Below are positions 3,474-24,640 of a stretch of 24,640 nucleotides of DNA, piece by piece; positions within the stretch are counted from its first letter, which is position 1; the number at the start of each line of letters is the position of its first letter. The translations under genes were made by a program, and so were the position numbers. The notes beneath the pieces were generated by a model. It had not been told where the DNA came from. It was given only the letters and a program-made list of their open reading frames with translations, and did no database searches. The DNA is from a virus: positions 1 through 24,640 of the IMG/VR virus record IMGVR_UViG_3300006928_000078, one strand, 5' to 3'.

Positions 3474-5909
3474 CTATCTTGGGTCAAATTCCGATAGATT
3501 AAAACCATCTAAACTGTCCTCATTAGATTCAAAACTTTGAGGAGGTAAATTATTTTTCTTTTGATTTATCAGATTAGATTGTTCCGTATTTTGTTGACTT
3601 ATTCTATTAGCTTTTGCTTTTTCTCTATCACTTTCTCTTTTTGATAAAGCAGCATCTTCTTGTCCTTTTATCTGCATGTTATATTGAAACTCTTCAGCCA
3701 TAAGTGAACGTTTTAATTCAGCTTCCACTTTAAGTTTTTCTATTTCAAAAGCAACATCTGCTTGTCTGTATTGCATTTTCATTTGACCTTCAGCTTGAAT
3801 TTTTTGCATTGCTGTTTGAGCAGCCATTTGTTGAGACATTTGCTGTTGTTTTGCGAGTACAGCTTGTTTAGTCATTTCTCTTTTTTCGTCTTCTTCTTTC
3901 TTTCTTTTACGCTTCATTTTCAACAATTGATTTGCAAGTTTAATATTTCTTAAAGCTCTGATATCAATTGCGTCTTCCAAGTTTATGTCTTGCTTAGATA
4001 AAGCCATTTGAATATTTTGTTCTAACATAGCTTTTTCTTCTTCATCAGGAGAAACTTCTATAAATATTCCAAAATCATATATATATAAATCATTTATTTC
4101 TTTTAATATAGACACATTGTATTTACCTATTTGATTTATAAACTCTTCTTTAAAAGCAGAATACTCTAACACATCTGCCACTCTATACGACAATGCTTCC
4201 GCAAGAGTTCTATATAAATATAAACTTGCATCCAAAATATGTCTTGTTGCGGTATTGGAATTTAATGCTGCTAATTTTTGAACACCAACTAAAGCGTCAG
4301 GATTTGGTGTAGAACCATCTCTAGCTTCATTTAGTCCTGTAACAGTTCTAATCATATCCATATAATGGTTATAATTAGTTAAAAGCATTTGAGTTTTACT
4401 CGCTCCACTATTAGAAGTAAGCTGTTGAATCGGGACTCTACCATTATTAAATTCACCATCTTGAGTATAACTTCTACCTACAACACTACCTGTTTGAAAA
4501 TAAAGCCGTAGAGCGTCTTCGGGGTTATAAGCGTTACCTGTACCTAGGTCTACCTCATTAAGCCCGTCAGCGTCAATATAAACACCGTCAGGGACAGTTT
4601 TAGCAATTACTTGCTGTAGCTTTAAGTGAGTGATTTGAATTAAATCAGCAAATGGTATCATTCGTCTTGTTAAAGACTCAATATTACCCTTATACATTCT
4701 AGGTGCAACAGCAACATAATTAGGCATTGCATGTTGAGATGCTGATTTTGGTCTAACCATATTTTTAGATAATTCCCATTTTAAAATAAAGTTAGTACCC
4801 ATTACCATTACTCCTTCATACCATACATCTATACGTTTACTAATTTTTTCAAAATTACCCTCTTCCTGTACTTCATCAGGCGGATTAAATTGGTCATCTT
4901 TTTCAAGAACCCTAGCTCCTCCGCCCTCTAATTTTTTCTTTTTATAAACAAATTCTTTTGTGGTTTTATAATTAAAATACATAATGGTAGCAGTATCTCT
5001 ATAAAAAATACTATTCTGATAATACTGTGCTGTGTTAAAATAGTCATACCATGATTGACTGTATTTGCTTATCTTTTCTAAATCTTCATTTGTTAATGAT
5101 GGGTCAATCTTCATCAGCTCTATTATAGGAACGGTTTTGATTTCACCCCAATAAAAACAATCTTTAAAATGTTTATCTTCTGTGTAACTGTATACTAAAT
5201 TTGCAGGGTCAACATAAGTTATTGTTACACCACTACCTTCTAAAAATTCATGTTTAGCACACGCTATTCCACAAACAGTAATATCATAATCTAATCTTTT
5301 TCTAATATCTTGATAATGATTATCATCAAATAAAGTATTGATTGCTTCTTCTTCAGCTATCTCAATAGCAGGTTTATAATTTAAATTCATAAACAACTGA
5401 AGCTCATCATCTGTTTCAGGCAAACTGTCAGGTTGTACAACAAAAGGGTCAACATCAAAATTTTTAGAAATGTTTTGAAGAATAGGTTTAGCAGACATTT
5501 GACCCTCAACCATATCTTGATATTTTGAACGCTTTGCTTGAGACATTGCATCTTGTGCATATGCTTCAACTTTAAACAATCTGTCAGACATTCCATTTAC
5601 AACAATGTCAACAAACTTAGGAATTACAGGAACTATAGACCAATCTAAATTTAAGTAAGACAAGTCTCCATCAACAGCTAATTCGTTTTTATATTTTCCT
5701 ACTGATTGTTCACCACGAGCATATAATCTTAATCTATTAAAATTACCCCATTGATTATAGTATCTACACCCTACTCCATCCTTTCTAAACCACTCATATT
5801 GTATTGCTTGACCAATCTGTAAACCAAACTCTACTGTTGCTTTTTTAGCATCAGACACAAATTGACTTGGAAAACCGGCTGCACTTATATCTATTTTTAT
5901 ATCTTTCAT
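3474..5909 (-). CDS. Portal protein
   Basis: 811 residues, resembling large portal proteins of the crAss-like/marine Bacteroidota phage type. The portal forms the dodecameric ring at one capsid vertex through which DNA enters and leaves. An N-terminal region (about 25-110) includes YNQWGNFNRLRLYARGEQS and VPVIPKFVDIVVNGMSDRLF. Residues 400-450 contain SLTRRMIPFADLIQITHLKL and AKTVPDGVYIDADGL, which I associate with this family's core. About 505-565 includes TVTGLNEARDGSTPNPDALV and an alpha-helical stem-like stretch. Residues 655-770 form a long Lys/Gln/Glu-rich predicted coiled coil (KMKRKRKKEEDEKREM), and the tail is Gln/Asn-rich. The start overlaps the large terminase stop by ATGA (5906-5909), indicating translational coupling. 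Genomic position (TerL, portal, scaffold, capsid) supports the call. Confidence 0.9.
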   Translation of the reverse strand: MKDIKIDISAAGFPSQFVSDAKKATVEFGLQIGQAIQYEWFRKDGVGCRYYNQWGNFNRLRLYARGEQSVGKYKNELAVDGDLSYLNLDWSIVPVIPKFVDIVVNGMSDRLFKVEAYAQDAMSQAKRSKYQDMVEGQMSAKPILQNISKNFDVDPFVVQPDSLPETDDELQLFMNLNYKPAIEIAEEEAINTLFDDNHYQDIRKRLDYDITVCGIACAKHEFLEGSGVTITYVDPANLVYSYTEDKHFKDCFYWGEIKTVPIIELMKIDPSLTNEDLEKISKYSQSWYDYFNTAQYYQNSIFYRDTATIMYFNYKTTKEFVYKKKKLEGGGARVLEKDDQFNPPDEVQEEGNFEKISKRIDVWYEGVMVMGTNFILKWELSKNMVRPKSASQHAMPNYVAVAPRMYKGNIESLTRRMIPFADLIQITHLKLQQVIAKTVPDGVYIDADGLNEVDLGTGNAYNPEDALRLYFQTGSVVGRSYTQDGEFNNGRVPIQQLTSNSGASKTQMLLTNYNHYMDMIRTVTGLNEARDGSTPNPDALVGVQKLAALNSNTATRHILDASLYLYRTLAEALSYRVADVLEYSAFKEEFINQIGKYNVSILKEINDLYIYDFGIFIEVSPDEEEKAMLEQNIQMALSKQDINLEDAIDIRALRNIKLANQLLKMKRKRKKEEDEKREMTKQAVLAKQQQMSQQMAAQTAMQKIQAEGQMKMQYRQADVAFEIEKLKVEAELKRSLMAEEFQYNMQIKGQEDAALSKRESDREKAKANRISQQNTEQSNLINQKKNNLPPQSFESNEDSLDGFNLSEFDPR

Positions 5910-8152
5910 TGTAATATTTTGCTTAATGTTCCTGTATTCGTGTATCTTGCAAAGTTAATGCTTATTTTTGACTCTTTTTTGGTCGGTAAATATAAGTGTT
6001 TTTGATTAGCCATTATTGCCAATCCTGAACTTATAGTTGCATCAAAACGAGTTCTATTTGAAATATCAAACTTTGCCCAATCTTCAAGCGTCTTTGTAAA
6101 ATACATTGTACCCATATCTTCGGAATCTCTAAATGTTCCTTCAAAATCTAAACCTACATATTTTTCAATATATGATTCTATTGCTGCGGCATGTGATTGT
6201 TTTACATCTTCACTTGAGTTAGGGATACCACCTAATTCTCTTTCTGTTTTTGATAATTTATTATATACTTTATCGGGTCTATTTAAACTATAACCTCTAT
6301 ACCCTCTGTTTTTAAAATGATATAAAAGACGAGGTTTATTGTTTTCACATAATATTGGCATACCATAAAATACACAAGCCATTAAAACTTCTTCAAAAAA
6401 TATTTCAGCAGTTTGAGGTCTTGCTACATATTCTAAAAAAAACTCATTACTTGGTGCGTCATCCATGTTAAATTTAGTCATTCCATGTAAAGCACCATTA
6501 GAACCTCCACCTCCAACAACACCTGAAATATCATAGGAGTCACATCCAAAAGAACCAATATGTTCATTGCCCGGATATTTTTTCCCATTGCGGATATAAT
6601 ATTTATTTTGAAGTTGTTTTGATGGAGTCCATCCAACCAAAAATCTTCCTCGTTTATCAGGTTTAAATATTACTTCGGTGTCTTTTATTCCATTTTTCCA
6701 ATAAAACCCTCCTTGAGTAACATGATGTTGAATTATTAATGAATCATTATAATCTATTTGTTGGTATATTTTTGTTAGATTAAACAATGACTGTTTGCTT
6801 TCATCTCTAAATGCGTGAGATTCAGACCTAGGAAATTGTCTGTAATATTCATTTAAAGCATCAGGGTCGGATTTTAATGATTCAACCTCATTCTCCCAAT
6901 ACTCAATTGCTCCTATTCTAATCATTTCATTATCGATTCCTAAAATTGGTGTAGATGGGGTTTCTAAAACAGGCATTCCATATCTATCAATAAACCCTTC
7001 CATATTCCACTCCATAGGAATAAATAAATTATATAATCCACTTTTTGTCTGACCATTCGCATTTCTTTTAGAACTATCCGAATCTTCATACAAACTTTTA
7101 AAATTATCACCCCCCTTACTTAAAGCATTGGAAGTAGAACCCATCATACATTTACCAATAACTTTGCTACCTAACCTTAAACAAGTTTTAGTAACACGCC
7201 AATTATTTAATATGTTATTTGGCTTTAGCCATTTACCACTTTCATCATGAACTAATAATAATAATTTTTCACCATCATAAGAGTTATCATCAGTATTCTT
7301 CCAATCTATAGTAGTATCTAACCCATCTAGCTCTTCCTCTTCAACGGTATACATATTTTTCTTTGTAATTTTTGAAGCAGGTACTCTAAAAGCTAATTCA
7401 GTTTTTGGCTTATCCATACCATCTTGAATAGGTTTAAAGAAAAATGGTAAATTACTTCCAATAGGCACAACCTTGTCTGTAAACATTTTTTTAGCATCCG
7501 AACCTGTTTTAGAAAGAATACCTACCCTTGAATCTTTAGCTAATGTTCCTGTATTAACACATTCGGAAGAACCCATAAAAGAAAATCCGGAACGTCTTAT
7601 TTTTAAATAACATAAACCGAAACTTCTCAGGTCTGCCCTACACGCTTCCCAATAAATAAAAAACAATCTGTTTGCTTCTCTAAAATCAGGATAACCTACA
7701 TCAATTTTTGTCCATTGTAAATACATATAATGAGAACCTGTCATATATGTCGGAATACCGTTATTGTAAAACCAATACCCATATTCTCTATAATCAAACT
7801 CTTGTTCTATATAATCAATCCATTGGTTTTTAAATGTATTGGGTTGGTCGTTCCATTGAAATATGGTAGAAATTCTTTTTAGTGATTTAGGGTATTCGTG
7901 CCTTTCCCAATATTGATGTTTTGTTGCACTATGTCTTTTAGTAATTTTTTTTGGTTGGAGTGGTAATGCAATATTTATACCATTCATTTTTATTATATCT
8001 CCAATTTCACCTGTTTTTGATATAACAACAATGTCATATTTTTCATTGTATCCATATTTCCAAGTTGCACTTTTATTTTTTTTAACAAGCACATTTTTAG
8101 GAATGACTCCAACTAATTTGGTATATAATTTATTTAGAACGTCTTTCTGCAA
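5906..8152 (-). CDS. terL: Terminase large subunit (packaging ATPase and nuclease)
   Basis: 748 residues. TerL is the motor that translocates DNA into the prohead and cuts it. The N-terminal ATPase shows a degenerate Walker A around 184-191 (KIRRSGFS), a Walker B at 296-304 (KLLLLVHDE, with D303 and E304) and a coupling motif around 338-340 (GST). The C-terminal RNase H-like nuclease candidates are D538 in GSFGCDSYD, E603 in ILCENNKP, and an acidic residue near D704 (RFDATISSGLAIMA). The HAAAIESY segment (654-661) is also family-like. The length, including about 130 residues before the ATPase, fits the large TerL of crAss-like and marine flavobacterial phages. The start overlaps the small terminase gene by 23 bases, and the end overlaps the portal by ATGA. 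Confidence 0.93.
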   Translation of the reverse strand: MQKDVLNKLYTKLVGVIPKNVLVKKNKSATWKYGYNEKYDIVVISKTGEIGDIIKMNGINIALPLQPKKITKRHSATKHQYWERHEYPKSLKRISTIFQWNDQPNTFKNQWIDYIEQEFDYREYGYWFYNNGIPTYMTGSHYMYLQWTKIDVGYPDFREANRLFFIYWEACRADLRSFGLCYLKIRRSGFSFMGSSECVNTGTLAKDSRVGILSKTGSDAKKMFTDKVVPIGSNLPFFFKPIQDGMDKPKTELAFRVPASKITKKNMYTVEEEELDGLDTTIDWKNTDDNSYDGEKLLLLVHDESGKWLKPNNILNNWRVTKTCLRLGSKVIGKCMMGSTSNALSKGGDNFKSLYEDSDSSKRNANGQTKSGLYNLFIPMEWNMEGFIDRYGMPVLETPSTPILGIDNEMIRIGAIEYWENEVESLKSDPDALNEYYRQFPRSESHAFRDESKQSLFNLTKIYQQIDYNDSLIIQHHVTQGGFYWKNGIKDTEVIFKPDKRGRFLVGWTPSKQLQNKYYIRNGKKYPGNEHIGSFGCDSYDISGVVGGGGSNGALHGMTKFNMDDAPSNEFFLEYVARPQTAEIFFEEVLMACVFYGMPILCENNKPRLLYHFKNRGYRGYSLNRPDKVYNKLSKTERELGGIPNSSEDVKQSHAAAIESYIEKYVGLDFEGTFRDSEDMGTMYFTKTLEDWAKFDISNRTRFDATISSGLAIMANQKHLYLPTKKESKISINFARYTNTGTLSKILQ

Positions 8153-13355: not shown

Positions 13356-13619
13356 TTATTTTTTTCCTCCCATATTAGTCGGCTTAGGCATATTCAACTT
13401 TCTGCCTTTTCTTTTTTTACCTGCTAACGCTCTTGGAATATCATCTAGTTGATTTCCTACTTGCTTTAAAGCATTACCCACATCGGCTAATTCTTTAGAA
13501 GTTAGTTTATATCTTTTTTTAATTTCTTTTAAAGCAGCTATACTTTTTTCATCGATGGAGGTTTTATTCCATAAAGCATTCCACATATCTTTCCAATATT
13601 GTTTTGTTAATTTCCACAT
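13356..13619 (-). CDS. Small basic helical protein, conserved hypothetical
   Basis: 87 residues. A tryptophan-rich amphipathic start (MWKLTKQYWKDMWNALWNKT) leads to a helical Lys/Glu segment (SIDEKSIAALKEIKKRYKL), then ALKQVGNQLDDIPRAL. The tail is strongly basic (GKKRKGRKLNMPKPTNMGGKK). I recall relatives with WNKTxVDEK and EVGNQLGDI in marine Bacteroidota phages, with no assigned role. The basic tail could bind nucleic acid or another virion protein (inference). The gene starts 13 bases inside the end of the S74 fibre gene, so it is translationally coupled to it. Confidence 0.72.
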   Translation of the reverse strand: MWKLTKQYWKDMWNALWNKTSIDEKSIAALKEIKKRYKLTSKELADVGNALKQVGNQLDDIPRALAGKKRKGRKLNMPKPTNMGGKK

Positions 13620-15910
13620 GATTTATTTTTTAAAATTTCTATTTCATTTTTTAATTCTTTGATAGATTCAATTAGTAATGGTACTAATCTACCATAATCT
13701 ACTGTTAAATAATCTTCATCATTATCGTAAGAGATAGGTGCAGTTTCAATAACTTCAGGCATAACTCTTTGAACTTCTTGTGCACTAACTCCTACTTGTC
13801 TTTCATAATTTTCATATCCAAGTTCAGCTGCTTTTTCATTTTGTGTATAATAATAACCATTTAGTTTACACACTTTATCTAAAGCATCAGGAATATTACC
13901 TTTAAAATCTTTTAGTCTTTCATCCGAATAGTATGCTATAATGTTACCTGTTGCTCTGATTGTACCACTTGCAGTTGAAGTTGTACCTGCAGATATACCA
14001 TATCCCGAAGGAACATAGAATCCACTTGCTGTAGTATAAATTGAATTTTCATCAAACGTCATAGACCCATTTGAACCAAAGCCATTTATTTTAGTAATTA
14101 TATCTGAGCCATCACAATTTAATTCAAACGTACCACTCCCGTCTTCTCTAATAGCATAATCGCCATTAAAGATTAATTTATTATCTGTACTGTTATATGT
14201 TAATCCATTATCACTACTAAGTGATGAAGTGCCTGTCCAATACGCTATTCTCTGATTTACCCCTGTACCTGTTACCGTTCCTGAATTAGTAGTATATCCT
14301 GAATCATTTGTCCATTGTGATATATTACCACTTTTATTTGTAAAAGTAGTTGTTGAAGAAGCTGTAACATCCCCTTGTGGAGCAGCGGCAACTAAATTAG
14401 TTACACTTACTTTTTTATTGGCTAAGCCACTTGTGTCATAAATTAATAAGTAATCTCCACCGGCAGCTGTTGCTCCTAATGCGGTTTGACCTTGAATATC
14501 AAGTCCTATATTTAATGTTCCGCTTGTAGTCCAACTTGAACTTCCTCCTAATGTAATACCTGCTTTATTTCCTGTTTGTTCAGTAAATGCAACCGAGGTT
14601 ACAGTACCTGCAGTTGAAGAAGTACCTGCACCAATCGCTGTTCTAAAATCTGAAGCACTTAATGAGCTAACTGAGTTGTCAGCATTCATTCTTGGAAAAG
14701 TAACCGCACTAGGATTAGTAAGCGTAAAAAACGCTTGACCAACTGTAGTTCCACCCAAAGATGTTCTTCCATCAGCTGCAAGTAATCCTGTGGACTGCCC
14801 ATTCCATTTAAATCTATCTGTGTATGCAGTATTCCATTCTGTTGATGTGTTTCCCGTAACTGTTAAAACAGTTCCACTAAATGTCATATTAGCATTTCCT
14901 TCAACTGTAGTTGCATCCGTCCAAATAGCAACTTGGTTATCTACAGGTGTGCCTGATGCGACTACATCACCACTACCTGTACCTGCTCCGATATAACTTC
15001 TTAAATTAGCTCCCGTTACATACTTTATTTCACCACTATCTGACATTAAGAATTTGTCAGTATCACTACCTATTTGGTCAATAGTGCTTATGGTTTGTGT
15101 TCCTGTTACACTAACCCCTGTACTTGTAGTTTGAAATTTTTGTACATTATTATAAAAAAGTTGAACAGAACCATTTTCATTAAATACTGCTTTATTTTCT
15201 CCATTTATACCCTCTATTTGTACATTTGCAGAACCTTGTATATATAGAACACCTGTACCTGTTTCTTTTATATAACTATTACTACCATCGTGATATATTT
15301 CTAAATCACCACCATCACCAAATTTTGCCTTTACACTATCAAAATGTAGTGTTGATTTTAAAAATCTAGTTTCAACTTCACCACCATCAACTCTAAAATA
15401 TTGAGCAACATTACCTGAGCCATCATCGCTGTAAAATATAATATCTCCACCATCCGCTTTTTGTTCAATTAATAAATTACCTGTTTCATTTACTATATTA
15501 CTATTAGTAGCATCATGGTATATTTTTAAATCACTACCTGTACCAATTCTTAGTTGAACATCATCTGTCAAATATAAGTTTTTAGAAAATTCTAGTATAG
15601 TTAAACTACCATCTAATTTGAAATATGTAGTAGTACCACCACTTCCATCATCAGCTTGAAAAATAATATCTTTATCAGCAGTTATATTTTTAATAATAAA
15701 ATTTTGAGAACTATTTGATAATCTCCCAAATTCAGAACTACTCGCTCCTCTTAATACTACATCATTTCCACCTGAATCTAATCTTAAATCGTCTATTGAA
15801 GCAATAGTGAAATCTCCACTTCCACTTTCGGTAAATGTTGCAGCATTGCTACCATCTCCTGTAATAGATACAGAACCTGTAACATTTATTCCACTTAAGA
15901 AATTTCCCAT
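13607..15910 (-). CDS. Tail fibre or spike with C-terminal Peptidase_S74 (intramolecular chaperone) domain
   Basis: 767 residues. The fibre shaft contains two copies of a DLxIYHDxxNSxIxETG unit (about 127-149 and 202-224). It also has variable-type modules such as NQVAIWTDATTVEGNANMTF (325-344) and NQRIAYWTGTSSLSSDNGLT (552-571). The C-terminal 115 residues form a Peptidase_S74 domain: a Ser-Asp dyad at S662-D663 in YYSDERLKDFKGNI, then GVSAQEVQRVMPEV (707-720), TVDYGRLVPLLIESIKEL and a closing coiled coil. In characterised S74 proteins (endosialidase and T5 L-shaped fibre families) this domain directs trimer folding and then cleaves itself off before the catalytic serine. All key residues are present, so self-cleavage near residue 661 is expected. 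Confidence 0.9.
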   Translation of the reverse strand: MGNFLSGINVTGSVSITGDGSNAATFTESGSGDFTIASIDDLRLDSGGNDVVLRGASSSEFGRLSNSSQNFIIKNITADKDIIFQADDGSGGTTTYFKLDGSLTILEFSKNLYLTDDVQLRIGTGSDLKIYHDATNSNIVNETGNLLIEQKADGGDIIFYSDDGSGNVAQYFRVDGGEVETRFLKSTLHFDSVKAKFGDGGDLEIYHDGSNSYIKETGTGVLYIQGSANVQIEGINGENKAVFNENGSVQLFYNNVQKFQTTSTGVSVTGTQTISTIDQIGSDTDKFLMSDSGEIKYVTGANLRSYIGAGTGSGDVVASGTPVDNQVAIWTDATTVEGNANMTFSGTVLTVTGNTSTEWNTAYTDRFKWNGQSTGLLAADGRTSLGGTTVGQAFFTLTNPSAVTFPRMNADNSVSSLSASDFRTAIGAGTSSTAGTVTSVAFTEQTGNKAGITLGGSSSWTTSGTLNIGLDIQGQTALGATAAGGDYLLIYDTSGLANKKVSVTNLVAAAPQGDVTASSTTTFTNKSGNISQWTNDSGYTTNSGTVTGTGVNQRIAYWTGTSSLSSDNGLTYNSTDNKLIFNGDYAIREDGSGTFELNCDGSDIITKINGFGSNGSMTFDENSIYTTASGFYVPSGYGISAGTTSTASGTIRATGNIIAYYSDERLKDFKGNIPDALDKVCKLNGYYYTQNEKAAELGYENYERQVGVSAQEVQRVMPEVIETAPISYDNDEDYLTVDYGRLVPLLIESIKELKNEIEILKNKSCGN

Positions 15911-18301: not shown

Positions 18302-19021
18302 TTAATTTAAAAATGCTTTTCCTGCAAATGCAGCTGAAAATGACACAGTCAGCTGATTTGAATTATTATATACTATCTGTCCCTGTGCAACACTATATGG
18401 AGTGTTGGCTGAATCCGTTACCGTAACTGAAGGAAACGAATTTAAATTATGTGTGATTGTCCAAGTAGCTGAAGCTACACTTTGTGTGTGAATGTAGGTT
18501 GTCGCAGGGTCAGACTTATATGTTAGCAAAGATATAAAATAATCTTTATCATCTACTAAGCTCCCATACCCTGTGGCATAAGTTACACCGATGTCCCAAA
18601 AATTAGTTTCAACCCCGTCTTGTACGGCTGAATCCCATTCGTAAATTGCAAATGTAGAAGGGTCACTACACCTTGACACCAAAACAGTTGATTGTAATAA
18701 TGGGTTAGTATAATATAAACTTACATCTACCGCATTATTAATTTGTTGTTTGCTTAATTTAAAACTTGTTATGGAACTTAATGGAACTGTACCTGTATTT
18801 AAAGAAGCAAAAGATATTGTCCCTGCTAGTCTTACATCACCTGCTTCCATATCTTGATACTTGTATCTCAAAGATTGAGATTCAATCCTATTATACGAGT
18901 TCATAAAAATAGCTACTGCATTAGCGGAAAAGTTTTTTGTATTATTTGTTACATCAGTACCAATCCATTTATCCGCAGGAACTACAGGTGTAGATAAGGG
19001 ATATGTTTCAATTTTTGCCAT
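18302..19021 (-). CDS. Fibre-like structural protein
   Basis: 239 residues, Ser/Thr/Asn-rich, no signal peptide. The N-terminus (MAKIETYPLSTPVVPADKWI then TNNTKNFSANAVAIFMNSY) resembles the N-terminus of the 1103-residue fibre and probably serves for attachment to the particle. The C-terminal module (about 181-239) contains ATWTITHNLNSFPSVTVTDS and a terminal LTVSFSAAFAGKAFLN. I recognise this as a frequent fibre tip or trimerisation module of marine phages; a relative ends the 785-residue fibre. The middle (75-175) has no motif that I recognise. The ATG lies 14 bases inside the end of the holin gene, so this fibre protein is translationally coupled to the lysis genes. Confidence 0.75.
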   Translation of the reverse strand: MAKIETYPLSTPVVPADKWIGTDVTNNTKNFSANAVAIFMNSYNRIESQSLRYKYQDMEAGDVRLAGTISFASLNTGTVPLSSITSFKLSKQQINNAVDVSLYYTNPLLQSTVLVSRCSDPSTFAIYEWDSAVQDGVETNFWDIGVTYATGYGSLVDDKDYFISLLTYKSDPATTYIHTQSVASATWTITHNLNSFPSVTVTDSANTPYSVAQGQIVYNNSNQLTVSFSAAFAGKAFLN

Positions 19022-19421
19022 TCTTTATTTTTTTTCCTTTTTCATAAGACCTTCCGCCGAAATAAGCTGCCACAATTGTAATTAGAAGCATCTGAAGTAA
19101 ATCCGACCATTTCTCTTCAACTGCAAAGTTAATAAATCCTGAGTCAATAAAAATTAGCAACATTGTGCAGACAATAACAAAAATTAAAACTAACGGTCTT
19201 ACGGATTTAGATAATTTATTGTCGGATGCCATATCTGCTTTCCATCTATCCGTTACATTTTTTTGCATAGCAGCTTCGGCATTAATGAGTATTTCAGTCA
19301 TCTCTTTTTCAAACTCTGCTTTCTCATCTTTAGTTCTCACAAATCTATCTACTATATTTGATAGTTTATCTCCTACCTCCCCTGCTGCACCTCCAAATAT
19401 TTTTGCTAGTATTTCTTTCAT
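19008..19421 (-). CDS. Probable holin of the 3TM (GTA-type) family
   Basis: 137 residues. A cytoplasmic helical N-terminal part (about 1-72, including KDEKAEFEKEMTEILINAEA) is followed by two evident hydrophobic segments: about 75-93 (RPLVLIFVIVCTMLLIFI) and about 106-121 (SDLLQMLLITIVAAYFGG). The ending GGRSYEKGKK is characteristic. The pattern of charged helix, RP-started first membrane segment and a final FGGRxxEK fits the holin_3TMs (PF11351-like) family as I recall it. Holins open the inner membrane to release or activate the endolysin. The gene overlaps the peptidase gene by ATGA (19418-19421), giving the common endolysin-holin pair. Confidence 0.82.
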   Translation of the reverse strand: MKEILAKIFGGAAGEVGDKLSNIVDRFVRTKDEKAEFEKEMTEILINAEAAMQKNVTDRWKADMASDNKLSKSVRPLVLIFVIVCTMLLIFIDSGFINFAVEEKWSDLLQMLLITIVAAYFGGRSYEKGKKIKNGKN

Positions 19422-19876
19422 ATCACTTTATATTTAGTTCTACGTTCCTCTTTATATGCCTTTAAACATCTTCCTCTATTTTCTTCTTTTGAAACGTATG
19501 ATACATGAATCCAATTCGGATTCATATCCGTACCAAACTCCCAAATTAATTGGTCAAAGTCACAATTTTCTTTTATCCAATAATACATTTCAGCGTTTGT
19601 TTTATGACCATAAACATCATCGAGGTCAATCGCTTGACCTTTACAATGTTGTGAGGAAGCTACTCCGCCAATTGCTTCATTCAAAGGAATCGACCTAAAA
19701 AATGAATTTACTTTTATAGGTCCTCCAACCCATTCTCTTAACGGTTCAAAAACTTTTTCTGCCGTTAATTTCATTGTATCAACTTGAGTCGGATTTGGCG
19801 TGTTATCTATTCCTTTTCTTTTAGCTGTGTTTGAGTGTATTGCTTCTGCGTAAGTTATATGTTTGCTTATTCTCAT
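19418..19876 (-). CDS. Endolysin, Peptidase M15-type (D-Ala-D-Ala or L-Ala-D-Glu peptidase)
   Basis: 152 residues, no signal peptide. Zinc-site motifs of the Peptidase M15A/M15_3 family are present: SSQHCKGQAIDLD (74-86, ligands H77 and D84), NWIHVSY (121-127, ligand H124), and FDQLIWEFG with probable catalytic E113. The N-terminal HITYAEAIHSNTAKRKGIDN (6-25) and FFRSIPLNEAIGG (59-71) are also typical. Such phage enzymes cut peptidoglycan peptide stems during lysis. Without a signal sequence it would need the adjacent holin to reach the cell wall. ATGA overlaps couple it to the outer-membrane-like gene before it and to the holin after it. Confidence 0.92.
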   Translation of the reverse strand: MRISKHITYAEAIHSNTAKRKGIDNTPNPTQVDTMKLTAEKVFEPLREWVGGPIKVNSFFRSIPLNEAIGGVASSQHCKGQAIDLDDVYGHKTNAEMYYWIKENCDFDQLIWEFGTDMNPNWIHVSYVSKEENRGRCLKAYKEERRTKYKVI

Positions 19877-21165
19877 AATTCTATATTTAGTCCTATAGTA
19901 GATTTAAAAATCTCAGTATCCCAAAACTTAGTATATTCTCCTTCTACAAATATACTCAATTTTGAAGTAATGTACCATCCACTAATCAAACCAAATTGAT
20001 AGTCTTCCCATTGTTCTAATTCAGAATCTTCTTTTAATCCGCCTAATCCCCAATTATTTCTATTTAAATAACTGAACGATTCATCTCCCTTAAAGTATTT
20101 ATGATAAGGTAAGATATAGTTAGCATATGCATGAACCCATAGTTTATCATTGTAACTGTACCAATCTGCTCCGATAACAGGAGCTACTTCAGCAAAAGCA
20201 TCTAACATATCCCATTGCTCTCTATTATATCGGTTCATCAAGTCAGCAAAAACTGTCTCACGAAACTCTAAATCCGTATGGGCTACTATTGTTCCTTCTT
20301 CATCTATCCAATACCAATCTGAAATTTCATTACCTAATTGGTCTGATTGGGTATAATAAATATCATCATAACCATATTCAAAACCTAAGGTGTACCAAGG
20401 GTTTAATGCGTATCCATCTTCATCAGTTTCGTTTAACCAAATTTCTACAGGATTGTATCCAAATGCTTGGTCATGAGTTCTTGCTATAACTCCGGCTGAT
20501 ATACTAAACTTTTTTCCTATAGGTAGTCTACCTCTTACTTCGGCTGAACTATATTTAAATCCAACATTTCCTTCTTCTCTTGACTCTACCTTAACAATGT
20601 GATGCTTACCTGTATTCCTAAGAAAGTAACGGTGATTATTAAACACCTCACCTCTTTCCCTTTCTTTCTCCCAATGGAATAAGTATTCCCATCCATCAAA
20701 TGCGGCTGTTGGAGAAGACAAAGCTACATTCTTTTCAGTACCATCATAATATGCTTTTTCTTTATTCTCATAATCAAATCTAGCAATACGTCTAATTCCA
20801 AATCCATATCGATAATCAAATTCATGATATTCAGTTGCGTCTTCAACTATTGGCACATCGTATAAACTACCGCTAGGATTAGTTCTTACAACATAGTCAA
20901 TAGATTGTTTTTGATAGGGATTATTTGCATTACCTGCAATATAGATTGTTCCATATTTTAAAAAGTCATTATATACTTTTTTAAAAAATTTTCCTTTGTT
21001 TATTTTTTTCTCAAAACCTTCAATTAAGTTTTTTTCCGTAACCGAGTCTACCTCTTTAATTACTTGAGCTTGTGCATTAAATGTAAAAGCTGCTAATAAA
21101 AAAATTATTACCAAATATAATATAGCGTTTAATGCAAACTTTTCTGTTTTTTGTTTTCTATCCAT
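19873..21165 (-). CDS. Exported, beta-rich outer-membrane-like protein
   Basis: 430 residues. Basic N-terminus, hydrophobic core about 11-28 (ALNAILYLVIIFLLAAFTF) and a signal-peptidase-like site AQA|Q after residue 33. The mature part is rich in aromatic residues and alternating beta-type segments, such as YGFGIRRIARFDYENKEKAY, HRYFLRNTGKHHIVKVESRE, SAEVRGRLPIGKKFSISAGV and NPWYTLGFEYGYDD. It ends IFKSTIGLNIEL, like the last strand of an outer-membrane barrel. This suggests an outer-membrane or periplasmic protein made by the phage in the infected cell. Roles could be envelope disruption at lysis, receptor masking or virion function; none is proven. It starts one base after the previous gene and overlaps the endolysin by ATGA, so it belongs to the lysis operon. 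Confidence 0.75.
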   Translation of the reverse strand: MDRKQKTEKFALNAILYLVIIFLLAAFTFNAQAQVIKEVDSVTEKNLIEGFEKKINKGKFFKKVYNDFLKYGTIYIAGNANNPYQKQSIDYVVRTNPSGSLYDVPIVEDATEYHEFDYRYGFGIRRIARFDYENKEKAYYDGTEKNVALSSPTAAFDGWEYLFHWEKERERGEVFNNHRYFLRNTGKHHIVKVESREEGNVGFKYSSAEVRGRLPIGKKFSISAGVIARTHDQAFGYNPVEIWLNETDEDGYALNPWYTLGFEYGYDDIYYTQSDQLGNEISDWYWIDEEGTIVAHTDLEFRETVFADLMNRYNREQWDMLDAFAEVAPVIGADWYSYNDKLWVHAYANYILPYHKYFKGDESFSYLNRNNWGLGGLKEDSELEQWEDYQFGLISGWYITSKLSIFVEGEYTKFWDTEIFKSTIGLNIEL

Positions 21166-21166
21166 T

Positions 21167-21502
21167 TTAAAACTTGCTTTTTTTAATTTCGTTAATATGT
21201 TTTTGTATAGTCTCTAATGTATTTTCAGGTAGGGTAAGCGATATATTACTTTCTACTCTGACAATTTCTTTTCGATTGTGGTATAAAACTACTGTGGGAA
21301 GATATACTATTTTATCTTTGGAAAATAATTTAGGATGGTCGGTAAGATAAAATCTATATTGGTCTGCACCCTCTAAGTCATCTAAATCTACTTCGGCTGC
21401 TTTTACAAAATCAGCACTATATTGAACTACGACAATTCCATCTTTGTACTGTGCATGAACGGTAGAGGTTAACAGCATTAATAATATTATCCATAACCTC
21501 AT
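21167..21502 (-). CDS. Exported thioredoxin-like protein lacking cysteines
   Basis: 111 residues. Signal peptide about 1-17 (MRLWIILLMLLTSTVHA|Q). The mature part has the order of a thioredoxin fold: DGIVVVQYSADFVKAA (strand and following helix, 21-36), QYRFYLTDHPKLFSKDKI (48-65), a cis-proline-type segment YLPTVVLYHNRKEIVRV (67-83, P69) and a C-terminal helix (NTLETIQKHINEIKK). The protein contains no cysteine at all, so it cannot be a redox enzyme. It may be a structural or binding version of the fold. The fold assignment is by eye. It overlaps the membrane-anchored coiled-coil gene by ATGA and precedes the outer-membrane-like gene by one base. Confidence 0.7.
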   Translation of the reverse strand: MRLWIILLMLLTSTVHAQYKDGIVVVQYSADFVKAAEVDLDDLEGADQYRFYLTDHPKLFSKDKIVYLPTVVLYHNRKEIVRVESNISLTLPENTLETIQKHINEIKKSKF

Positions 21503-21801
21503 TTCTTGCTAATTTCATATAATCTCTCATCCATCTTGTCTAGTTGTAATTTGATATCCTTAACGTCTTCTTTAATTGTCGCCATATCGGATTGTACTCC
21601 TTCTACTACTGTCCTAGTTAATTGGTCTTTATATGAAAATTCAACTTGAGTTACTTCAGGTTTTGGTAATTCCGCTGCGTTTGCTATATCAGCTTTTAAC
21701 GTAAAGTACATGGTTACAAGAGATATCGTAAATCCAACTATCATTCCAATAGTCTTTAAATCTAAAGTTACATTAGTATCTTCCGAAATCTTCTGTGCCA
21801 T
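21499..21801 (-). CDS. Membrane-anchored coiled-coil protein at the head of the lysis operon
   Basis: 100 residues. A short N-terminal part (MAQKISEDTNVTLDLKT) precedes one transmembrane segment (about 17-36, TIGMIVGFTISLVTMYFTLK). A linker with LPKPEVTQVEF follows, then a charged coiled coil to the end (TIKEDVKDIKLQLDKMDERL). I recall very similar proteins in marine phages, unannotated, next to lysis genes. The layout (one membrane anchor plus periplasmic coiled coil) would suit an inner-membrane spanin-like or holin-accessory role, which is inference. The minus strand shows AAGGAGA directly before the ATG; this Shine-Dalgarno match has unusually short spacing. The gene follows an 85-base gap that carries a palindrome. 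Confidence 0.75.
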   Translation of the reverse strand: MAQKISEDTNVTLDLKTIGMIVGFTISLVTMYFTLKADIANAAELPKPEVTQVEFSYKDQLTRTVVEGVQSDMATIKEDVKDIKLQLDKMDERLYEISKK

Positions 21802-23947: not shown

Positions 23948-24145
23948 TTACTTTTTGAAGTTCTTAGAATTAGAACCTAAGTGCTCCTCATACTTCATAT
24001 GATGGTCGCCACCGTAAGCGTGTCCATAATCTTTTTTAGACATTGCTTTACTTTCGTCTCTTCTGTCCTTCATGCTTTGTTTGTGCTTACCTCTATGCTT
24101 CATGCCTAGAGACTCGTCTAACCTGTCGTTATAACCTTGTGCCAT
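23948..24145 (-). CDS. Small highly charged phage protein
   Basis: 65 residues, rich in Lys, Arg, Asp, Glu and His: MAQGYNDRLDESLGMKHRGK, then HKQSMKDRRDESKAMSKKDY and GHAYGGDHHMKYEEHL. No hydrophobic core, so probably extended or helical and possibly disordered. The RLDESLG and SMKDRRDESKAM segments are ones I recall from small unannotated proteins of marine Bacteroidota phages in the same neighbourhood as the DUF5872-like protein. It could be a packaged DNA-binding or capsid-internal protein, which is inference from composition. Confidence 0.7.
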   Translation of the reverse strand: MAQGYNDRLDESLGMKHRGKHKQSMKDRRDESKAMSKKDYGHAYGGDHHMKYEEHLGSNSKNFKK

Positions 24146-24173
24146 TTTTTTATTTTTTATATTAATTTATTAA

Positions 24174-24332
24174 TTAAGCGTTTCGAGAATTACGTCTTCC
24201 GGCTGCGGCTTTACGAGCCATACCTTTTTTTCCGTACTTATTTACACCAATTGAATACGCTATTTTTTTTGCTGCTTCTTTGCTCTTTCCTTGAGCCATC
24301 AGCTTTTTTACCATTCTATCAAATGCTCCCAT
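24174..24332 (-). CDS. Small basic phage protein
   Basis: 52 residues: MGAFDRMVKKLMAQGKSKEA, AKKIAYSIGVNKYGKKGMAR, KAAAGRRNSRNA. The N-terminal half is helical; the C-terminal half is very basic and Ala/Arg-rich. The pattern KxLxxxGxSxExAxKIAxxIxxxKYGKKxMxxxAAxGRR is familiar from many marine phage contigs with no assigned function. It lies immediately behind a putative promoter element (24350-24357) and ahead of the 65-residue gene, so it may begin a transcript covering the small-protein cluster. Confidence 0.72.
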   Translation of the reverse strand: MGAFDRMVKKLMAQGKSKEAAKKIAYSIGVNKYGKKGMARKAAAGRRNSRNA

Positions 24333-24349
24333 GCTTAAAATTTATTTTA

Positions 24350-24357
24350 CAAAGATA
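24350..24357 (-). promoter_or_regulatory. Putative Bacteroidota-type promoter -7 element (TATCTTTG)
   Basis: The minus strand reads TATCTTTGTAAAATAAAT in the 46-base gap between the DUF5872-like gene and the 52-residue gene, 17 bases before the ATG at 24332. It matches TAnnTTTG exactly and shares TAWCTTTGTAMAAA with 3438-3445 and 12847-12854. A -33 TTTG at proper spacing is not evident. Confidence 0.55.
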
Positions 24358-24378
24358 CTATTATTTTTCTTTATGTAT

Positions 24379-24640
24379 TTAACACTTCCACCTACGTCTA
24401 GCTTGTCTTATTCTAGAGTTAGGATTGTTTCTAGTTTTTGCACTACTTCGTTTCAATTGCCCTAAACTTCTAGCACAATATGACTTTCTTCTTTTAGAAG
24501 CTTTACTTCCGGGTTTTACTTTACCGGTAACAGCTGTTTTTAATTTAGAACCGGGATTTGCTTTACGATAAGCGGCAACTCCTTTCTTCGTCATTCCTGC
24601 TCCTTTTTTTGTAGGTCTATAATTTGCACCTTTACCCTTC
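24379..24640 (-). CDS. DUF5872-like small basic protein (partial, N-terminus beyond the window)
   Basis: The frame is open to the right edge of the window, giving at least 86 residues. Upstream of the first visible ATG (24594) it reads KGKGANYRPTKKGAG, which matches how I recall the family continuing, so that ATG is internal. The visible part has MTKKGVAAYRKANPGSKLKT, AVTGKVKPGSKASKRRKSYC, ARSLGQLKR and a terminal RQARRRWKC. The KRRKSYCARSxGQ and RRRWxC elements are the hallmark of DUF5872 proteins found in phages and in large DNA viruses, where the function is unknown. It is very basic, with two cysteines (one in SYCARS and the last residue), and possibly a virion DNA-binding protein (inference). 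Confidence 0.85.
   Translation of the reverse strand, partial: KGKGANYRPTKKGAGMTKKGVAAYRKANPGSKLKTAVTGKVKPGSKASKRRKSYCARSLGQLKRSSAKTRNNPNSRIRQARRRWKC

Follow-up and report, generated by a model that had tools for sequence, protein, structure and literature searches.

A predicted outer-membrane barrel and two co-conserved envelope proteins in the lysis operon of an uncultured phage: a possible spanin-like module

It is still an open question by what means the outer membrane is breached in phages that lack recognisable spanins, and it is raised again by the lysis operon of the phage DNA analysed here, a part of a tailed-phage genome (24,640 nt, positions 1 to 24,640 of the record IMGVR_UViG_3300006928_000078; hereafter the window). 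A preliminary description of this DNA, made from the letters alone, had singled out a 430-aa exported barrel-like protein in the operon and had offered three roles for it: envelope rupture in place of spanins, blocking of superinfection, or a place in the virion. It had missed that the gene lies on the minus strand and has two obligate upstream partners (21167-21502 and 21499-21801). The features on which our argument draws are the following.

TMCC, 21499..21801, minus strand: 100 aa; laid out like an i-spanin, with a single TM helix at the N-terminus and a coiled coil at the C-terminus
TRXL, 21167..21502, minus strand: 111 aa; secreted thioredoxin fold, no CxxC
BARREL, 19873..21165, minus strand: 430-aa exported beta-barrel (predicted); no sequence family; structural matches are outer-membrane barrels
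M15-peptidase endolysin, 19418..19876, minus strand: PF08291 E 4.7e-16; PHROG 894 'endolysin' E 1.4e-27
Holin-family gene (GTA_holin_3TM), 19008..19421, minus strand: PF11351 E 1.8e-6; PHROG 3427 E 1.5e-24
TerL, 5906-8152, minus strand: PHROG 6681 match
Portal, 3474-5909, minus strand: PHROG 6547 match

Read along the minus strand, the operon runs TMCC, TRXL, BARREL, M15 endolysin, holin, the last two being named from family matches only. Three of its junctions are 4-nt overlaps and the TRXL/BARREL gap is 1 nt. The ATGA coupling to the endolysin gene reported earlier was confirmed, the BARREL stop and the ATG of the M15 peptidase gene (PF08291, PHROG 894) sharing 4 nt, and the endolysin/holin junction is again a 4-nt overlap.

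The BARREL reading frame is, from its sequence conservation, no chance ORF, because a single-sequence scan of viral metagenomes yielded 44 relatives, profile searches yielded 580 candidate stretches (546 with a second profile, the two sets overlapping), and about 80 columns are invariant across 31 aligned sequences with 47-87% identity to the window protein. By inspection its signal peptide comprises residues 1-33 (..LYLVIIFLLAAFTFNAQA, then Q), and this Q, at the predicted cleavage junction, is invariant in the 31 sequences, the N-termini being variable. Inspection and a hydrophobicity score, by which all signal peptides were assessed, indicate a Sec signal peptide and a mature part without a TM helix. 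No family match was obtained in Pfam, PHROGs, NCBIfam, PADLOC or PDB sequences, and tblastn against 50,697 deposited phage records gave no match, not even when a divergent member was the query and the threshold was E<5. Within the viral protein set of BFVD, entry A0A516LKJ4 (342 aa) is a probable relative judging from its structural match (Foldseek E 2.2e-25, 24% identity over 369 columns). A bacterial origin was considered and rejected: the genome scan returned six MAG contigs (L126-L131) whose bins disagree (Woesearchaeota, Alphaproteobacteria, Maricaulis and Bacteroidetes) and whose neighbouring genes match viral loci, and these contigs are probably mis-binned phage.

Two alignments were tried in turn for AlphaFold2, and the figures quoted are those of the better model: a first model from 31 sequences (pLDDT 68.6) was superseded by a second one of the mature protein from 88 sequences (pLDDT 82.3, pTM 0.70). 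The latter has a long N-terminal helix (mature residues 7-35), which would lie on the periplasm side, and about 12 long antiparallel strands (mature residues 39-47, 83-92, 124-136, 139-151, 155-164, 169-182, 186-197, 290-304, 308-317, 354-364, 369-380 and 383-394), with long loops between strands 1-2, 7-8 and 9-10, the longest of about 90 residues and holding a hairpin. Foldseek and VIA-align searches recovered outer-membrane barrels almost throughout (NanC, OmpT, BamA, FapF, CymA, OmpG, TamA and OpcA), with CymA at Z 11-12 over about 207 residues. The predicted strands also show alternating hydrophobicity, a value reached by 8 of 2000 shuffles, several strands being weak. The predicted fold class, an outer-membrane barrel, is thus well supported by the models, but the exact strand number is not, since the matched barrels vary in strand number at an rmsd of about 4-6 A. 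The barrel-like, exported nature of the 430-aa protein holds up in frame, signal peptide, model, structure searches and hydrophobicity pattern, whereas the comparison with outer-membrane families that had been suggested succeeded in structure and failed in sequence. The earlier statement that phages rarely carry large outer-membrane-type proteins stands in part, unrelated porin-like proteins having been predicted in other phages.

The two upstream partners are small envelope proteins. TMCC (93-151 aa in the family, median 99) has one TM helix near the N-terminus, then a C-terminal helix with a heptad coiled coil, in which 85% of the a/d positions are hydrophobic, compared with 33% overall; between orthologues this helix varies by a stretch of 7 residues, the length of one heptad. 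Its PHROG matches are weak only (Rz-like spanin, E 0.0036; holin/anti-holin, E 0.00098). The layout resembles that of an i-spanin as far as sequence tells, and the protein would sit in the inner membrane in an N-in/C-out orientation. TRXL combines a signal peptide with a thioredoxin fold: the curated cut-off of Pfam Thioredoxin (PF00085) is exceeded in three relatives, and the family profile recovers PDB thioredoxins, the top row (E 5.3e-11) being a multi-domain chain in which no stretch passes by itself and the next one standing at E 1.2e-7. It shares with Thioredoxin the fold and the Pro-Thr (cis-Pro) motif, invariant in the TRXL alignment A2, but differs from it in being secreted and in having no CxxC in any of 109 members. 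Since CxxC is missing throughout and 92 of the 109 proteins end in Phe, a thiol-redox role appears unlikely from the sequences; the window protein has no cysteine at all. An adaptor role is the one we infer for TRXL. Searched with tblastn among deposited phages, TMCC and TRXL gave only thioredoxin-like or marginal matches.

What lifts BARREL above an odd protein is its company, an obligate and widespread module in a lysis operon without recognisable spanins. Where a barrel-centred locus has 1.5 kb or more of flank to each side, TMCC and TRXL were always present on the same strand (135 of 135 cases), near-identical contigs included (183 BARREL proteins leave 87 once redundancy is removed at 88% identity), and the barrel loci without the full trio all have less than 1.5 kb of flank. 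All three genes were found in 48 of 48 TRXL-centred loci with full flanks and in 51 of 56 TMCC-centred loci, the other five (L351 at 6001-7658, L353, L364, L370 and L387) being TMCC-TRXL pairs without BARREL. Three such pairs (L351-L353) have an amidase and a holin directly after them, and BARREL was not found in four of the pair records searched whole, which may be fragments. BARREL was therefore never seen without TMCC-TRXL, the pair can exist without BARREL, and given these five pairs BARREL is not needed in every TMCC-TRXL system. The flanks of 1.5 kb and 2.6 kb, the E 1e-3 threshold and the lipobox rules applied below were chosen while viewing the data.

The loci vary in arrangement. Of 111 loci, 52 have the order TMCC-TRXL-BARREL, 30 have BARREL-TMCC-TRXL, and nine contain a second pair; L025 and L027-L034 carry this pair after BARREL (TMCC-TRXL-BARREL-TMCC'-TRXL'), possibly a duplication with a diverged TRXL' type. 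TMCC and TRXL overlap by 4 nt in 59 cases. The trio adjoins either of two unrelated endolysin types, M15 endolysin or amidase, and occurs in records of 50 to 213 kb. Many barrel-first loci are distant from a holin, and in barrel-first loci the BARREL gene comes after a very large gene (~1900-2600 aa) with no assigned function. Divergence is correlated in all pairs tested by Mantel correlation (BARREL-endolysin 0.70, BARREL-TRXL 0.65, BARREL-TMCC 0.31), a signal that is not specific to the trio, BARREL-endolysin being as high as BARREL-TRXL and above BARREL-TMCC, and that therefore offers no evidence of a physical complex over and above linkage.

Profile searches recovered the trio in none of six TerL relatives (MW202828, elemo, Panino, phi13:2, phi38:1 and Gundel_1); one of these searches included twelve positive controls, and two of the runs included none. 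The nearest annotated relative (TerL 75%) retains an M15 endolysin belonging to the same family and has, directly upstream in the trio's place, a single 207-aa TM protein. The 207-aa protein of MW202828 was also compared with gp84 of phi38:1, and their homology was not relied on, with only E 0.001 in a two-sequence comparison. Beside the endolysin of relatives lacking the trio there is a protein of about 200 aa with an N-terminal TM helix (L046:15506-16129, L135:13274-13873 and L136:29456-30103); these proteins could possibly be single-gene envelope linkers.

In regard to known spanins, we searched for the lipobox that would mark an outer-membrane lipoprotein partner. None was present in the trio proteins (109 TRXL, 108 TMCC and 111 BARREL), the only match in the window lies inside the terminase gene, and none of the minus-strand ATG frames of the lysis region revealed a hidden o-spanin within or beside the trio. 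In a 65-kb relative, which has no terminal repeat and whose completeness is not proven, the search for a lipoprotein spanin in any frame matched only two short ORFs that are not gene-like. In TMCC-first loci, 49 of 58 have no same-strand lipobox ORF within 3 kb, and the nine matches include two that are BARREL and TRXL themselves. Of 83 barrel-first loci, 31 have a nearby lipoprotein gene, which differs in kind among the loci and could be an o-spanin there. Since no trio member has a lipobox, the trio is not, on sequence grounds, a member of either known spanin class. Like the two-component systems (lambda Rz/Rz1, T4 PseT.3/PseT.2) it has lysis genes nearby, and it would likewise have a coiled-coil protein that is held in the inner membrane by an N-terminal TM helix and reaches into the periplasm, and a partner directed to the outer membrane, but here the outer-membrane partner would be a 400-aa barrel and not a small lipoprotein, a third component of thioredoxin fold is added, and neither a lipobox nor sequence homology was found. 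With unimolecular spanins of the T1 gp11 type only the possible role is alike, the trio having three genes and no single protein with both a lipobox and a C-terminal TM helix.

The 2018 spanin survey left about 13% of the analysed phage genomes without a spanin and placed outer-membrane proteins among the possibilities outside its criteria (PMC6139136); that such a protein might act as an o-spanin was stated there by Kongari et al. with no case given. Most spanins use disulfides (PMC6139136), whereas shared cysteines are few or absent in TMCC and TRXL. In Bacteroidetes phages, spanins of the unimolecular type only have been reported (PMC12596118). In the literature that we searched, no comparable lysis protein with a barrel or a thioredoxin fold is described, and as far as the searches went the three-gene envelope module is undescribed.

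Of the three roles first proposed, the most strongly backed is a possible part in envelope rupture instead of spanins. We consider it an even call that BARREL, TRXL and TMCC form one envelope-spanning, spanin-like lysis module with the barrel as its outer-membrane anchor, and more tentatively suggest that this is a tripartite trans-envelope machine for outer-membrane disruption in marine phages, unrelated by descent to spanins. The function, localisation and complex formation of the trio are what we infer, and the likelihoods attached to each explanation are judgements and were not computed. Under such a mechanism, the TMCC coiled coil would reach into the periplasm from the inner membrane (N-in/C-out), and TRXL would be a periplasmic adaptor linking it to the periplasmic face of BARREL. 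Intact peptidoglycan would keep the complexes trapped; once the holin frees the endolysin they would cluster, and the outer membrane would be pulled onto the inner one and disrupted. The constancy of the trio, the 4-nt TMCC-TRXL overlaps, the position in the lysis operon, the TMCC layout, the failure to find a lipobox and the replacement by a 207-aa TM protein all argue for the spanin-like module, whereas the non-specific Mantel result, the five pairs without BARREL, the barrel-first loci far from a holin or near a lipoprotein gene and the few cysteines argue against it. As to how phages lacking recognisable spanins breach the outer membrane, the trio is in any case a concrete, compact and abundant candidate, with hundreds of candidate stretches in uncultured viral contigs.

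The operon position and the TMCC topology could also be read as a lysis-timing device, which we regard as unlikely, with TMCC a holin/antiholin like T of phage T4, TRXL a periplasmic regulator like RI, and BARREL, in the outer membrane, a sensor or anchor by which lysis is delayed upon superinfection or envelope stress. T4 T has one TM helix and a periplasmic C-terminus, and the RI-type antiholin is periplasmic and binds the periplasmic domain of the holin. A one-TM holin would suit TMCC, TRXL is small and secreted, the trio shares its operon with endolysin and holin, and the weak holin/anti-holin match of TMCC points the same way; however, the operon already has a separate holin-family gene, and the long heptad coiled coil of TMCC is more spanin-like.

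Blocking of superinfection by BARREL is possible, and a broader form of this idea, to which we assign an equally low likelihood, has BARREL altering or masking a receptor or the cell surface, and TRXL and TMCC helping to assemble or anchor it. Phages are known to alter the host surface, and the long predicted loops, of up to about 90 residues, would fit such a role. Yet surface-altering and exclusion proteins usually act alone, with no tie to an inner-membrane coiled coil, and BARREL lies in a late lysis operon coupled to the endolysin, with no match to a defence or exclusion family.

Less probable still is that BARREL serves the infected cell as an outer-membrane channel, for the uptake of nutrients or in some other auxiliary capacity. 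BARREL does match the diffusion channels CymA, OmpG and NanC, with which it has the outer-membrane barrel fold in common by structure search, though a common fold does not show function; it differs from them in its identity (at most about 10%), its phage origin, its obligate envelope partners and its long N-terminal helix, and a channel leaves the invariant TMCC/TRXL partners and the lysis-gene position unexplained. The virion or ejection protein raised in the preliminary description, for which the large gene preceding BARREL in barrel-first loci could speak, is very improbable because a Sec-type signal peptide is kept across the family and its two co-conserved partners are envelope proteins, and in addition tailed phages assemble in the cytoplasm and BARREL matches no tail family.

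As for the phage itself, which is marine, the best relative of its TerL among deposited phages is that of an uncultured podovirus from Manatee Spring (75%), and TerL is 31-45% to phages of Flavobacterium, Maribacter, Cellulophaga and Tenacibaculum, so that a host among the Flavobacteriia appears likely. Elsewhere in the window, a 767-aa ORF (13607-15910, minus strand) has a C-terminus that by eye resembles the S74-type intramolecular chaperone of tail fibres, and small Lys/Arg-rich ORFs are clustered at 23948-24639 (minus strand), a cluster that recurs near the trio in relatives. Relatives also encode GroEL/GroES, seen by eye at L103:1885-3498 and annotated in MW202828, elemo and Panino (GroEL) (L046, L132 and L133). 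Downstream of the trio in two loci (L021:12027-12779 and L023:12443-13195, both minus strand) there is an ORF that by eye resembles KDO-8-phosphate-synthase (MKKPILIAGPCSLEG..), possibly a surface-sugar gene.
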